Of a stretch of 57,129 nt of DNA, positions 3,753-56,113 are shown one piece after another; position 1 is the first letter of the stretch, and every line of letters starts with the position of its first letter. A program made the position numbers and the translations under genes. The notes under the pieces were generated by a model that saw nothing but the letters and a program-made list of their open reading frames with translations, was not told where the DNA came from and did not search any database. The DNA is taken from the NCBI GenBank assembly GCA_949293335.1, contig CASFDA010000030.1, forward strand, positions 1 to 57,129. The letters run 5' to 3'. Source of the stretch: an uncultured Spirochaetales bacterium. Lineage in GTDB: Bacteria > Spirochaetota > Spirochaetia > Sphaerochaetales > Sphaerochaetaceae.

Positions 3753-3794
3753 TCCTATGGATTCGTGGCATTCTTAGTGTTATTATTCAGTCAC

Positions 3795-3873
3795 ATGCGG
3801 GGGAGCCGGAAACGGCTGAGAAGGTAGAACCTGACCCTTGGAACCTGTTGGTTAGAACCAGCGTAGGGAGCAT
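3795..3873 (+). ncRNA. TPP riboswitch (THI element)
   Basis: The classical THI-box elements occur in order: GGGGAGC, GGCTGAGA (about 3813-3821), ACCCTTGGAACCTG (about 3834-3847) and CCAGCGTAGGGA (about 3858-3869). The closing P1 helix can be ATGC 3795-3798 with GCAT 3870-3873. It lies between typA and thiD. There is no T-run after it; the expression platform seems translational (see 3881-3899). Confidence 0.95.
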
Positions 3874-3880
3874 TTCTTCT

Positions 3881-3899
3881 CTCCTTGCGCAAAAAGGAG
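3881..3899 (+). promoter_or_regulatory. SD-sequestering hairpin of the TPP riboswitch
   Basis: CTCCTT 3881-3886 is complementary to AAGGAG 3894-3899 with a 7-nt loop. The right arm is the SD of thiD (ATG 3906). This is consistent with ligand-dependent blocking of translation initiation; which aptamer segment acts as the switch is inferred, not shown. Confidence 0.6.
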
Positions 3900-41446: not shown

Positions 41447-41871
41447 GTGAGCATTAATTGATCAGTACATTTACCATCGATCAAGCTTTAGCACCTTGCA
41501 TATTGCAGGTTGCTGTGCGGTCATCGGGCTTGTCCCTAACGCACTCTTCATGGCCAATATGAGTATATAGCTTTTTGTACTCTGAAAAACAAGATGGAAA
41601 TACGGTATATAAGTATGTTTAATGTATTGGTTACAATAAAGAAATAGGGAGATATGATTAAAAAAACAATAAAAATATTTAGAAATCATACGTAAACAAT
41701 CATATTACATATTTATTAAGTCATTAAAATTTAAATAATTTTGTATTGTATAATCAGTGTATTAATAAAAAAAGGGGAGTAACACAATTAATTCAATATG
41801 CATTGATATAATAACCAAAATAAACAAAATATGAAGTTGGATAAATAAATGATATACTTTTTCCCCCTTTG
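41447..41871. other. Intergenic region upstream of the recombinase
   Basis: About 425 bp. A block at roughly 41485-41560 is richer in G+C than its surroundings and, on the minus strand, reads as a short peptide tail (MKSALGTSPMTAQQPAICKV), possibly a remnant of a lost gene that I cannot identify. A TATAAT occurs at about 41748-41753. The rest is A/T-rich with no gene. Confidence 0.35.
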
Positions 41872-50097: not shown

Positions 50098-51348
50098 TTA
50101 TTTTATATCTACTATTTTGCATTTACTTCTATCCAATGAATATCCGATGAGCGCCCCCAAGAAAGTTGGGAAAAGCCACAAAAATGGTGATGAGAATACT
50201 TTGAGGATCGTCAGGAGAGAGAAGAGGAGAGCAAATGAGATGCTGATGACATATGTGTAGTGCAGTTTGTCTGCATTCTTTAAAAACGCTAGCCCGATTA
50301 GGGTTATGGCGGCAGGGTAGAGTAATGTAAGTACAGGGCTTGAGAGCTGTATGATGGCATTAAGTCCTATATTTGATATCAGGAAAGAAAAGAATGCGAA
50401 GATGAAAATCCAGAGTGCTCTGCTGAGTCTAGAATAAAGACTGTTGAAATACTCGCCACACGAGGAAAGAAGGCTTACCGACGTATTGAAACAAGCGATG
50501 ATGAATATCAAGGCCAATATTGGACGTCCGAAACTTTCTGAGACGTGATAAGCTACTTCTGACAATACTTCAGCGCCATTATCTGCACTGAAAGAAAAAC
50601 CTCTGGCAGCGAGTCCCACGAAGACTATCATCAGGTAGATGATCAGAAGGAGCATTCCACCTCCGACTGCGGCAATTGCTGCTTCTTTCCTCTCTTTTTC
50701 CTTTTCCACCCCGAGTGCCCGTACATTGATGGACAGTATTATTCCAAAGACAAGTCCTGCCAATGCGTCCATTGTCTGATATCCGTCTGTAAATCCTGTC
50801 TGGAATGCTTTTTCTGCGTAAGCATTGAGCGCAGGCACATTGGCAGAATGCGGTACAGAAAGAGAGAAAAGGAAGAGAATGGATATTAAAATCACAAGGA
50901 CTGGGGACAGAATCTTTCCAAGACGTTTTGTAAGTTTTTCTGGTCGGAGAGCAATAATTGCACTGAAGAAAAAGAATATTGCCGAATAGATGAGTCTATA
51001 AAAAGAACTTCCAATAGGATAAGCATTTGCCAGCATTTCGAAGCTTGTGCTGGCCGTTCTTGGAATTGCAAGGCATGGCCCGATTGCAAGATAGATTGCT
51101 ACTGTGAATAGAATGCCAAATGCCGGATGGACCCTAGCTGCAAGCTTTTCAGCAGATCCTGCTTTTCCGATTGCAACAAGAGACAATACAGGAAGCCCTA
51201 TAGCTGTGATAACAAATCCAAGAAAAGCTACTGCCGCATTTTCGCCAGCCATGAATGCAAGGAACGGAGGGAATATCAGGTTGCCAGCTCCGAAGAACAT
51301 TGCGAAAGTAGTGAAGGATAGGACGATTCTCTTTTTCAAGCCAATCAT
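50098..51348 (-). CDS. brnQ: Branched-chain amino-acid transporter (LIVCS/BrnQ family)
   Basis: A 416-residue integral membrane protein with about 12 hydrophobic segments and a short N-terminal MIGLKKRIVLSF. GAGNLIFPPFLAF near residues 21-33 and the YFNSLYSRLSRALWIF region are typical of BrnQ cation-coupled carriers for leucine, isoleucine and valine. It lies next to and on the same strand as the leucine operon, about 190 bp downstream of leuB, beyond a terminator, so it is likely transcribed separately. Uptake and synthesis of the same amino acid sit together. Confidence 0.88.
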   Translation of the reverse strand: MIGLKKRIVLSFTTFAMFFGAGNLIFPPFLAFMAGENAAVAFLGFVITAIGLPVLSLVAIGKAGSAEKLAARVHPAFGILFTVAIYLAIGPCLAIPRTASTSFEMLANAYPIGSSFYRLIYSAIFFFFSAIIALRPEKLTKRLGKILSPVLVILISILFLFSLSVPHSANVPALNAYAEKAFQTGFTDGYQTMDALAGLVFGIILSINVRALGVEKEKERKEAAIAAVGGGMLLLIIYLMIVFVGLAARGFSFSADNGAEVLSEVAYHVSESFGRPILALIFIIACFNTSVSLLSSCGEYFNSLYSRLSRALWIFIFAFFSFLISNIGLNAIIQLSSPVLTLLYPAAITLIGLAFLKNADKLHYTYVISISFALLFSLLTILKVFSSPFLWLFPTFLGALIGYSLDRSKCKIVDIK

Positions 51349-51541: not shown

Positions 51542-52600
51542 TCAGATATATGATGCGATTACATCTCCCATCTCAGTAGTGCCCAGGAGCTTGTCTCCAT
51601 CTTTGCAGATATCTTTCGTCCTGTAGCCATCCTGTATTGCTTTCTTCACAGCATTCTCGATAGCTTCAGCTTCATTTTTCAGTGAGAAAGAATACCTGAG
51701 CATCATTGCTGCAGAGAGTATAGTCGCAATCGGATTCGCGATGTTCTTTCCCGCAATGTCTGGCGCAGAACCATGGATAGGTTCATACAGACCGACATTT
51801 GACTGTCCAAGGGATGCAGATGCAAGCATTCCAATTGATCCTGTGATCATGCTAGCCTCGTCCGAGAGGATATCCCCGAACATGTTCTCTGTCACGATAA
51901 CATCGAACTGGGATGGATTGATCACCAGCTGCATGGCTGCATTGTCGACATAGAGGTTGTTCACTTCAACCGAAGGATAATCTTTGCTGACTTCGCTGAC
52001 GACTTCCCTCCAGAGCCTCGAAGTTTCAAGTACGTTCGCTTTGTCAACACTTGTAAGTTTCTTCCTTCTGAGCATTGCAAAGTCAAACGCTCTCCTGACA
52101 ACGCGTTCGATCTCGCTCCTTTCGTAGCTCATGACATCGTATGCGCCTGTTTCTGTCCTTTTCTTCTCCCCGAAGTAGATGCCTCCTGTGAGTTCCCGCA
52201 CAACAAGAATATCAAGGCCTTCAGGGATGAGGCTTTCCTTGAGAGGGCAGGCGGATGAAAGCTCAGGGTACATTACTGCAGGCCGCAGGTTTGAAAAGAG
52301 TCCGAGTTGAGCACGTAGTCCCAGAAGTGCCTTCTCCGGACGCTTTGAACTTTCTACGTTATCCCACTTCGGGCCACCGACAGCGCCAAGAAGGACAGAA
52401 TCTGCTTCCTTGCACTTCTTCACAGTCTCATCGGGGAGGGGAATTCCATATTTGTCAATCGCGGAACCACCTGCAAGCGTTTCGACAAAATCAAATTCAT
52501 GTCCATATTTCTTTCCGACTTTTCCAAGGACCTTTACTGCCTCAGTCACGATATCTGGGCCTATTCCGTCTCCTTTCACGAGGGCAATTGTATATTTCAA
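51542..52600 (-). CDS. leuB: 3-Isopropylmalate dehydrogenase
   Basis: A 352-residue NAD-dependent enzyme, third step of leucine synthesis. GDGIGPDIV near the N-terminus, the substrate Arg set in [33 protein letters not shown], and [21 protein letters not shown] are all canonical. The length is usual. It overlaps leuD by 4 bp and is the last gene of the operon. Confidence 0.96.
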
Positions 52601-53091
52601 TTGAAGCCTCCGTTCCTGACGAAATTCACAAGCCCGCCAGCATTCAGCAGATCCTGTATGAACTTTGGAAATGGTGTTGCCTGATACTCTTCATTCTTTG
52701 TGAGGTTCTTTATCACACCTGAACTGAAATCCACTTCAACTTCATCCCCTTGTTCGATTTTTTCGCTTGCTTCCTTGCATTCCATCAGAGGAAGACCGAT
52801 ATCAATTGCGTTGCGGAAGAAGATACGGCCGAAGCTTGCCGCGATCACGAGACTTATTCCGCACTCTCTCAGGGCAATCGGTGCGTGTTCGCGAGAAGAT
52901 CCGCATCCGAAATTTTCTTTTGCGACGACAATATCACCTTTTTTTACATTTTTCCTGAAATCTGGATCAATTTCTTCCATGCAGTGAGCAGCGAGGACCT
53001 CCGGGTCGCTTGAATTGAGGAAGCGGGCTGCGATGATTACGTCCGTATCGATATTGTCTCCGTATTTGAAGACTTTTCCTTTAGCATCCAT
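52597..53091 (-). CDS. leuD: 3-Isopropylmalate dehydratase small subunit
   Basis: A 164-residue swivelling-domain subunit. [17 protein letters not shown] and [15 protein letters not shown] are the family signatures. ATG 53091 shares its A with the leuC stop (TAATG); the frame is open to 53307 but that lies within leuC. The short form (about 165 residues) goes with archaeal/firmicute-style LeuC of about 420 residues, as seen here. Confidence 0.95.
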
Positions 53092-54362
53092 TATTTTCCC
53101 TCCATGAATTCGCGTGGGTCTGTTATCACCCCATTGACTGCACTTGCCGCTGCTGTCGCAGGAGAAGCCAGATATACCTCTGATTCTTTGTCTCCCATTC
53201 TGCCTATGAAGTTGCGGTTTGTGGTGGATACGCACCTCTCGCCCTTTGCCAGAACTCCCATATGTCCGCCCAGACATGGTCCGCAAGTCGGAGCAGAAAT
53301 CACGCATCCTGCATCAAGGAATATCTCGAGATATCCATTCTCCATTGCTTCTTTGTAGACTCTCTGCGTTGCAGGTATGATGATGCATCTGACATCTGGA
53401 TGGACCTTGTGCCCATCAAGGATTTCTGCAGCTGCCTTCAGGTCGGATATCCTTCCGTTTGTGCAGGATCCGATCACCACCTGATCGATCTTGATGTTTT
53501 TCCCTTCTTTTGCATCGTGTGTGTTCTCTGGAAGATGAGGATAGGCAACAAGAGATGGAACGTCCTCGAGGTTGATGTCATAGACTGCATCGTATTCAGC
53601 TCCTTCATCCGATGTGTAGATCCTCGGCTCTTTTGCGCCGTGTTCCCTGAGATACTTCAGCGCATTTTCGTCAACAGGGAAGAAAGCGCTCTTTGCACCA
53701 GCTTCGATCGCCATGTTCGCAATGGTGAACCTGTCATCCATCGAAAGATTCTTAATTCCTTCCCCTGTGTATTCCATCGCCTTGTAAAGCGCTCCATCAA
53801 CACCGATCTTGCCGATTATATAGAGAATGAGATCCTTTCCCGACACATACGGCCTGAACTTTCCAGAGATGTTGAACTTGATGGAGGAGGGGACTTTGAA
53901 CCAGAGCTTTCCAGTTGCCATGGCAGCCGCCATATCTGTCGATCCTATTCCTGTCGAGAATGCTCCGAGTGCTCCATAGGTACAAGTGTGGCTATCTGCT
54001 CCAACTACGATATCTCCGGCAGTCACAAGTCCTTTTTCAGGAAGGAGAGCGTGTTCGATGCCAACCCGTCCTACCTCAAAGTAGTTCTTGATTCCTTCCT
54101 TCTTTGCAAATTCCCTCATGCACTTGCACTGTTCTGCCGCCTTGATATCCTTGTTTGGAGTGAAGTGGTCTGGGGTAAGGACAATCTTGTCCTTGTCGAA
54201 AACTTTTTCCTTTCCGAATTTCGGCCATTCTTTTATTGCCACAGAACTCGTGATCTCGTTTCCAAGCACCAGATCGAGATCTGCCATGATGAGTTCTCCC
54301 GGCTTGACATATTCCTTTCCCGCACCCCGGGCAAGGATCTTTTCAGTTGCTGTACTTTTCAA
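53091..54362 (-). CDS. leuC: 3-Isopropylmalate dehydratase large subunit
   Basis: A 423-residue aconitase-family enzyme. Cluster ligands are in GSCTNGR and the C-terminal [23 protein letters not shown] and [11 protein letters not shown] are conserved. It begins at TTG 54362 after AAGGAGG, 2 bp past the leuA stop; the longer open frame up to 54407 would overlap leuA. Its short length puts it in the LeuC2/HacA-like class. Confidence 0.94.
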
Positions 54363-54363
54363 T

Positions 54364-55956
54364 TCATTCCTCCTTATCCGTATGTCCAACAAGCATGTCA
54401 CCTTCATCGGTGTCCACGACCTGATCTATCTCGTTGCTTTTCATTACCTTTCCGTCAATCATCCTGTTCACAGCTTGCATCAGGGCAAGAAGGGAAGCTT
54501 CAATCACGTCTGTTGAAAGTCCTCTTCCTCTGTACATCGCTTTCCCGTCAGAAATCTTTACGAAAACTTCTCCTTGTGCGTCACGGTGCGCGGTGACTGC
54601 CTCAAGCTGGTACTCCAGCAGGCTGAAAGGATGCTTTATTATCTTCTCTACGCATCTGAAAGACGCGTAGATAGGGCCGCTTCCAATCGCAACGCCCTGC
54701 ATCTCCTTACCGTCTTTTTCAAGTGTTATGCATGCTGTCGATGTAATCCCGTTGCCACTGTTCACCACATAGTTCTTCATCTTCCAGTGATGTTCGTTGC
54801 TGAAAGTGTCTCTTGTTCCTACAAGGGCGATGATATCGTTGTCCATGATCTGCTTCTTTCTGTCCGAAAGCTGCTTGAAAGACTCAAAGAGTTTCTTTAT
54901 CTCGTCCTCCTCGAGATTGTATCCGAGTTCCTCAAGCTTTCTGGTGAAAGCATGTATTCCAGAGTGCTTTCCCAAAACCAGGTTCGTCTTGTTCACTCCT
55001 ACAGATTCAGGTGACATGATCTCATATGTGAGGCTGTTTGCCATAATTCCGTGCTGATGGATTCCGGATTCGTGCGCAAAAGCGTTTTCCCCGACAATCG
55101 CCTTTGACGGACTGATCTTCACTCCTGTGATAGAAGAGAGCAGGCGGGATGTACGATAGATCTCTGTCGAGTTGACATTCGTATAGAGTCCATATTTTCC
55201 CTCTCTCGTCTTGAGTGCCATGACAACCTCTTCAAGAGCAGCATTTCCGGCCCTTTCACCGATTCCAGAGACCGCACACTCAAACTGCCTTGCACCTGCT
55301 TCAAGTCCGCTGATCGTATTTGCTACGGCCATTCCCAGATCATTGTGACAATGCATGCTCAGCCTTGCTTTGTCAGATACAGGGACATGTTCCCTCACAT
55401 AGCGCACCATGTTGGCAATTTCTTCTGGGGTAGAGTAGCCGACAGTGTCTGGAAGATTTATGGTCCTTGCTCCCGCATTGATCGCCCCTTCAACTACCCG
55501 GCACATGTAATCAAGATCAGTTCTCGTCGCATCTTCGAGACTGAATTCAATGTCAGGACAAAGGGAACTGGCATATTTCACCATTTCCACGATCCTTTCA
55601 TATGCGTCATCTCTTGAGAGTTTCAACTTATATTCAAGATGGAGATCCGATGTGGCCAGAAAAACATGGATGCGAGGGGAAACAGCGCATTTCACAGCTT
55701 CATATGATGCATCGATATCCTTCTTGAGCGCCCTGGAAAGCGAACATACCGTTGCATTCTTGATGATTCCGGCTATGCTCTTCACGCTCTCAAAATCCCC
55801 CGGACTAGAGATTGCGAAACCAGCTTCGATAATGTCTGCCCCCAGTGCCTCGATCTGTCTAGCCATCCTCAGCTTCTCTTCGAGGTTCATGCTGTATCCA
55901 GGAGCCTGTTCCCCGTCTCTGAGCGTAGTGTCGAACACATAGACTCTATCTGACAT
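54364..55956 (-). CDS. leuA: 2-Isopropylmalate synthase
   Basis: A 530-residue enzyme, first committed and feedback-inhibited step. The catalytic TIM barrel shows [16 protein letters not shown] at the N-terminus, [15 protein letters not shown] with metal-binding His residues, and [17 protein letters not shown] linker is followed by a LeuA_dimer regulatory domain (about 400-515). Citramalate synthase is an alternative in the family, but length, motifs and operon fit LeuA. An SD (GGAGG) precedes ATG 55956. It is controlled by the upstream attenuator. Confidence 0.93.
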
Positions 55957-55976
55957 TCCTTACCTCCATTTTTCAT

Positions 55977-56004
55977 AAAAAAAAGGACTCAACCTAACGA
56001 GTCC
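55977..56004 (-). terminator. Attenuator terminator of the leu operon
   Basis: GGACTC (55985-55990) pairs with GAGTCC (55999-56004), 8-nt loop, followed on the minus strand by eight U residues (55977-55984), all 20-50 bp before leuA. A terminator between a leader ORF and the first structural gene is the classical attenuation signature. Confidence 0.8.
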
Positions 56005-56024
56005 CCGAAGTGCATGACAAAAAG

Positions 56025-56040
56025 TCTGACCTCGGTCAGA
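56025..56040 (-). promoter_or_regulatory. Stem-loop in the leu leader, overlapping the leader ORF end
   Basis: TCTGAC (56025-56030) pairs with GTCAGA (56035-56040) around a tetraloop, and is followed in the transcript by a short U-run. It covers the stop codon region of the leader ORF, so a ribosome stalled on the preceding leucine codons would affect its folding. It could be a pause hairpin or a first terminator. Confidence 0.5.
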
Positions 56041-56092
56041 TCTTTAGTAGAAGTGCCATGCCAAAACAAGATTTCATAGCACTTTTATGCAT
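56036..56092 (-). CDS. leuL: Candidate leu leader peptide with three adjacent Leu codons
   Basis: An 18-codon ORF, MHKSAMKSCFGMALLLKI, too short for ordinary gene calling. The Leu codons are CTT CTA CTA, directly before the stem-loop at 56025-56040. AGAGAGGG lies about 6-8 nt upstream of ATG 56092. A second ATG at 56077 would give a 13-codon version. TTGACA at 56108-56113 plus CATAAA 18 bp further would start transcription near 56078, favouring the shorter leaderless version; in either case the LLL run is translated. AAGTGC at the start and GCACTT in the Leu region can pair, giving the alternative fold needed for attenuation. Confidence 0.6.
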   Translation of the reverse strand: MHKSAMKSCFGMALLLKI

Positions 56093-56113
56093 CAATGCAC
56101 CCTCTCTTGTCAA
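56084..56113 (-). promoter_or_regulatory. Possible leu operon promoter
   Basis: A perfect TTGACA (56113-56108) with CATAAA at 56089-56084, spacing 18. The -10 is only fair. If used, transcription begins at about 56078, just before the internal ATG of the leader ORF. Confidence 0.4.

Follow-up and report, generated by a model that had tools for sequence, protein, structure and literature searches.

The leuACDB operon of a gut spirochaete is preceded by a short leader that is likely to work as a ribosome-mediated transcription attenuator, with charged tRNA-Leu as the signal. The leader was analysed in a 57,129-nt stretch of DNA (the window), which is contig 30 of a source genome (G000) of 1.92 Mb and 99% completeness. 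The leucine-attenuator reading is supported because the leader and its terminator are conserved in a sister species (G048), and because leaders with Ile, Leu and Val codons precede the ilvN-ilvC-leu operons of the family. The gene identities had been assigned from the sequence alone, and NCBIfam agreed with them for leuA-leuC-leuD-leuB. The relatives of the LeuA protein were found in MAGs labelled Spirochaetales/Spirochaetaceae, Ca. Ornithospirochaeta, Sphaerochaeta and Pleomorphochaeta, which suggests a spirochaete of the Sphaerochaetaceae type. The features of the leader and its surroundings are collected in Table 1.

Table 1. Features of the leuACDB leader and other elements of the window.
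Feature	Position	Strand	Remarks
−35 box TTGACA	56108–56113	−	conserved in G048; family motif
−10 box CATAAA (predicted)	56084–56089	−	18 nt from −35, ends 6 nt before ATG; same spacing in G048
Leader peptide ORF MKSCFGMALLLKI	56036–56077	−	ATG 56077 to stop TGA 56036; no Shine-Dalgarno (SD) sequence; frame kept in G048
Control codons CTT CTA CTA (Leu-Leu-Leu)	56045–56053	−	two codons before stop; identical in G048
Hairpin P1 (TCTGAC/GTCAGA), extended by AAAG/CTTT	56021–56045	−	from folding; includes ORF stop codon, which lies inside stem-loop TCTGACCGAGGTCAGA (56040–56025)
P2, candidate antiterminator CCGAGGT/ACTTCGG	56005–56035	−	from constrained folding; mutually exclusive with P1
Intrinsic terminator stem and U8 tract	55977–56006	−	from folding; GGGGACTCG/TGAGTCCTT at 56006–55983, U8 at 55984–55977; conserved in G048, loop changed
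leuA, 2-isopropylmalate synthase	54364–55956	−	NF002086 and TIGR00973 above cut-off; SD GGAGG 55963–55967
leuC	53091–54407	−	TIGR02083 above cut-off; longest ORF, true start probably further in
leuD	52597–53100	−	TIGR02084 above cut-off
leuB	51542–52600	−	TIGR00169 above cut-off; followed by terminator-like hairpin
BrnQ/LIVCS branched-chain amino acid carrier	50098–51348	−	NCBIfam; 193 nt beyond leuB
TPP riboswitch	3789–3886	+	Rfam
SAM riboswitch	41471–41556	−	Rfam

The sequence-only reading had described a short ORF with CTT CTA CTA, an overlapping stem-loop and a U8 terminator, in this order, before leuA. All of them were found on the minus strand, where the leader runs as TTGACA, 18 nt, CATAAA, 6 nt, the ORF, the hairpin, the terminator, the SD sequence and the ATG of leuA. 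The codons of the ORF are ATG AAA TCT TGT TTT GGC ATG GCA CTT CTA CTA AAG ATC TGA. Two features of a classical ribosome-mediated attenuator are thus present and conserved in G048, namely a short ORF in the leader carrying consecutive codons for the amino acid that the operon serves to make, and an intrinsic terminator between this ORF and leuA. In 30,000 dinucleotide shuffles, an ORF with three Leu codons near its stop appeared 785 times and a terminator 125 times, and the two in the right order did not appear at all. The leader was also more stable on folding than 200 of 200 shuffles (z −5.2). From these two results, we conclude that the leader did not arise by chance.

The leader DNA was searched for in 139 genomes of the family. 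Matches beyond chance level were obtained in G048 alone, where the sequence lies upstream of leuA (E 3.6e-21); the LeuA proteins of the two genomes are 79% identical. This comparison with related genomes had been suggested at the outset, and it showed that the Leu codons and the terminator are conserved. The leader ORF of G048 encodes MNFTSLYNALLLGI; it differs by a 3-nt indel and retains the open frame and the ending ALLLxI before the stop codon. From GCACTTCTACTA through CTTCGGG the two genomes hardly differ, and the sequence ahead of this block is strongly diverged. Within the 53-nt conserved block, four substitutions were counted, three of which fall in the extension of P1 and preserve its pairing. 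There, AAAG/CTTT is replaced by AGGG/CTCT in G048, which amounts to one double change from A-U to G-C and one change from A-U to G-U. The U tract of the terminator was also kept (U7-U8 across both genomes). The exact leader occurs in only two species, with identical Leu codons.

It could be argued that the terminator is constitutive, serving for example the upstream 261-aa gene (56938–56153), and that a Leu-run ORF lies next to it by chance, with no response to leucine. That gene has the same direction as the leader, its end lies some 40 nt upstream of the −35 box, and the leader is present in two species only. We regard this explanation as highly improbable, since in G048 the leader block is conserved next to a different upstream neighbour in divergent orientation, a promoter-like sequence separates the 261-aa gene from the terminator, and none of the shuffles placed a Leu-run ORF before a terminator. 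A riboswitch or T-box, which a structured leader ahead of an amino-acid operon and the TPP and SAM riboswitches elsewhere in the window might bring to mind, is the least credible explanation of all, given that Rfam returned no match at gathering score in this leader or in the leaders of relatives, and noise alone at E up to 10.

The transcription start was placed with the help of the promoter sequences. In the ilvN leaders of relatives, the motif TTGAC[AT]-18-TAnAAG was present in 29 of 44, and the spacer was always 18 nt long in a search that permitted 17 nt as well. These leaders have 25–45 nt and a strong SD sequence between the −10 box and the leader ATG. In contrast, the leu leaders of G000 and G048 carry TTGACA-18-CATAAA and TTGACA-18-CATTAC, respectively, followed by just 6 nt and the ATG, and the SD sequence is absent. 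The CATTAC of G048 is preceded by TTGCGG, which can be compared with TTGCGG-TAAAAG in several relatives. The conserved promoter and the 6-nt gap point to a start at or adjoining the A of the ATG at 56077, and therefore the leu leader mRNA is probably leaderless. Among spirochaetes, Leptospira commonly has leaderless mRNAs (PMC5243855), and in Streptomyces Leu leader peptides of the leaderless type have been described (PMC8079986). It had been raised as an argument against attenuation that transcription might start beyond the Leu codons; this was not borne out, as the promoter would put the start upstream of them.

The same placement bears on the alternative pairing AAGTGC/GCACTT that the sequence-only reading had proposed. 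Because the start is placed at or next to the ATG, AAGTGC (56084–56079) is assigned to the promoter and not to the RNA; it overlaps the −10 region and is probably untranscribed, and it is not conserved, G048 having TACTTTGGT before the ATG. Leucine attenuation of leuACDB thus stood as the best reading, with comparative support, and the antiterminator pairing first put forward for it was left unsupported. On the folding results, P2 appears to be a better antiterminator candidate than AAGTGC/GCACTT. Its position corresponds to that of CCACGG/CCGUGG in relatives, and, if the two are homologous, the pairing would have been preserved through compensatory changes.

Four other candidates were rejected. 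P1 with CTTTTT was considered as a second terminator, the U tract of which reads CTCTTTG in G048. The hairpin P0 (GCATGGCA/TGTCATGC) has a different register in G048. A longer leader, in which the upstream GGTCAGATC pairs with GATCTGACC, gave the best fold; its upstream arm is missing in G048. Finally, a longer ORF starting at ATGTTGACA is open in both genomes, and its ATG has no SD sequence and the −35 box would fall inside it.

The behaviour of P1, P2 and the terminator was assessed by folding with a ribosome placed on the leader. Without a ribosome, the extended P1 and the terminator were obtained. A ribosome at the stop codon left the terminator alone, and P2 did not form, in G000 and G048. 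When the ribosome was put on the first, second or third Leu codon, the prediction was P2 (CCGAGGU/ACUUCGG, −13.0 kcal/mol) together with a terminator shortened to 7–8 pairs, whose stem energy was −9.4 instead of −11.7 kcal/mol for the window and −7.0 instead of −11.9 kcal/mol for G048. P2 and P1 exclude each other, and P2 and the terminator overlap by only two bases (GG), which is the weak point of the model. The leader at L047 gave the expected switch with the ribosome late in the codon run. Equilibrium folding is no strict test of switching, because it also always favoured the terminator in the G048 ilvN leader despite a strong overlap of P2 and terminator there. Since P2 takes only two terminator bases and folding is no strict test, we infer the step from P2 formation to read-through.

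In the proposed mechanism, the RNA would begin at or near the A of the ATG at 56077 and ribosomes would load on the leaderless 13-codon ORF. When leucine is plentiful, the ribosome would get to the stop codon and mask P1 as well as the 5′ arm of P2; the terminator would then be free and transcription would end before leuA. When leucine is short, the ribosome would stall at CTT CTA CTA and mask the 5′ arm of P1, so that P2 could form, termination would be reduced and leuACDB would be transcribed. A Leu leader could also act mainly by a route other than P2, for example by a ribosome-dependent change in the stability of the RNA, by pausing of RNA polymerase at P1, or at the level of leuA translation. 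The small overlap of P2 and terminator is in keeping with such a route. Moreover, actinobacterial leuA leaders, described as the LEU element (PMC1262725), carry Leu runs without a typical terminator, and mutational tests in Streptomyces were inconsistent with classical attenuation (PMC1262725, PMC8079986). Sphaerochaeta-type relatives likewise retain the leader peptide, and a U-tract terminator was not seen in them. However, the leu leader described here has a terminator with a conserved U7-U8 tract, and in near relatives antiterminator and terminator overlap in the classical manner; we therefore judge a route that bypasses P2 to be unlikely and retain attenuation through P2.

In most genomes of the family, leuACDB lies downstream of ilvN-ilvC. 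An ORF rich in Ile, Leu and Val codons precedes ilvN in 74 of the 75 distinct ilvN-ilvC-leu operons examined (L032–L098, L170–L229); it was picked automatically, and in a few loci, such as L171, the pick differs from the obvious leader. Alignment of 44 leaders showed I, L or V in 89–100% of cases at six of the seven codons from 3 to 9 before the stop (98, 100, 89, 95, 100 and 100% at −9, −8, −6, −5, −4 and −3). Several codons are used at these positions and the three residues are freely swapped at some of them, for example at −4 (18 L, 18 V, 8 I). Nearer relatives have a CCACGG/CCGTGG antiterminator and a U-tract terminator, and the six pairs of the former are nearly invariant, which makes covariation uninformative. 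Sphaerochaeta-type genera have the peptide and CCACGG/CCGTGG, and no U-tract terminator was seen in the sequence read. At L198, L201, L202, L211 and similar loci of this type, the leader before ilvN has an ending such as VVSLIIL before the stop codon and the CCACGG/CCGTGG stem, with the U-tract terminator absent. Several of these loci show a stem of a C run and a G run, with TATACCC, ahead of the ilvN SD sequence, so that control of ilvN in them may act via translation or Rho. Rfam matched no family in the nine leader loci of relatives that were scanned. No convincing Ile/Leu/Val leader was found before ilvB in 20 loci of other Spirochaetia families, a check that covered the sequence before ilvB and in which, at a few loci, the match began away from the gene start.

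The codons of the leader follow the content of the operon. In G048, ilvN-ilvC-ilvD-ilvB is separate from leuACDB; the split ilv operon retains an Ile/Val/Leu leader (MFSNSVISILLSVIILKR), and leuACDB carries the Leu leader. In G000, an acetolactate synthase subunit was not found. Its ilvC-like gene (L167, contig 31) is divergent (240 bits), is flanked by genes for a GntR-like regulator and a permease, and perhaps has another role than ketol-acid reductoisomerase. The ilvD-like gene scored below cut-off and is located within an oxidoreductase cluster. With the synthase subunit missing and both genes in other contexts, Ile/Val synthesis has probably been lost in G000. The BrnQ/LIVCS carrier gene is found downstream of leuB in this genome, which seems to lack Ile/Val synthesis. 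Two further genomes, G082 and G083, have no ilvC, and their leuA is preceded by a leader ending in SLSLLLTSVTR before the stop codon. This leader (L207, L213) has its own SD sequence and is followed by a GTCACCCGT/ACGGGTGAC hairpin with no U tract. Hence, where leu is split from ilv (G048) or ilv is lost (G000, G082, G083), the leader contains consecutive Leu codons, and Ile and Val codons are few or absent.

The leu leader of G000 and G048 shares with the family ilvN-ilvC-leu leaders the promoter spacing, the order of hairpins with one at the stop codon, a putative antiterminator at the corresponding place and, as regards nearer relatives, the U-tract terminator. It differs from them in antiterminator sequence and in lacking their strong SD sequence, longer distance from −10 to ATG, Ile/Leu/Val codons and large overlap of antiterminator and terminator. 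This likeness suggests that it descended from the family leader. We see an even chance that the codon set was re-tuned with operon content, from an ancestral Ile/Leu/Val leader on ilvN-ilvC-leu to leaders with a leucine run in two or more lineages whose leu genes were separated from the ilv genes or outlived them (the window with G048, and G082 with G083), in the first of which the loss of the 5′ UTR would have made the leader leaderless.

In the open literature searched, we came across no account of attenuation by leader peptides in spirochaetes, in agreement with the sequence-only reading; most subscription papers lie outside this search, among them a comparative survey of attenuators from 2010 (doi 10.1134/S0026893310010164) that may cover spirochaetes. 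The mechanism is known in kind, and the phylum is one where it seems undescribed. The leader is very probably a leucine attenuator; what is new is its occurrence in this phylum, the presence of Ile/Leu/Val leaders across the family and the match between codon set and operon content. The results extend peptide-leader attenuation of branched-chain synthesis to a whole spirochaete family. They also provide a natural series of joint operon, split operon and lost ilv genes, in which one can set the sensor codons against the part of the pathway that remains.

The enterobacterial leu leader (leuL; Rfam Leu_leader) has a Leu-codon leader peptide, alternative hairpins and an intrinsic terminator, with leuA as the first gene, and the leader described here is alike in all these respects. 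It differs from leuL in being probably leaderless, in the absence of an SD sequence, in the very small overlap of antiterminator and terminator, and in having no Rfam match; the Leu_leader covariance model gave no hit to it, either at gathering score or with E values up to 10. In Leptospira, the ilvB motif WRC-14-1 is likewise a structured element ahead of a branched-chain gene in a spirochaete; it has seven representatives and was placed among weak riboswitch candidates, and the available part of its description does not mention a leader peptide (PMC8632094). The leuA and leuS genes of Streptomyces lividans are preceded by the leaderless leaders LeuL1 and LeuL2, the latter followed by a hairpin and a U stretch (PMC8079986). 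Like our leader, which is probably leaderless too, these encode a short peptide with consecutive Leu residues; they differ from it in phylum and sequence.
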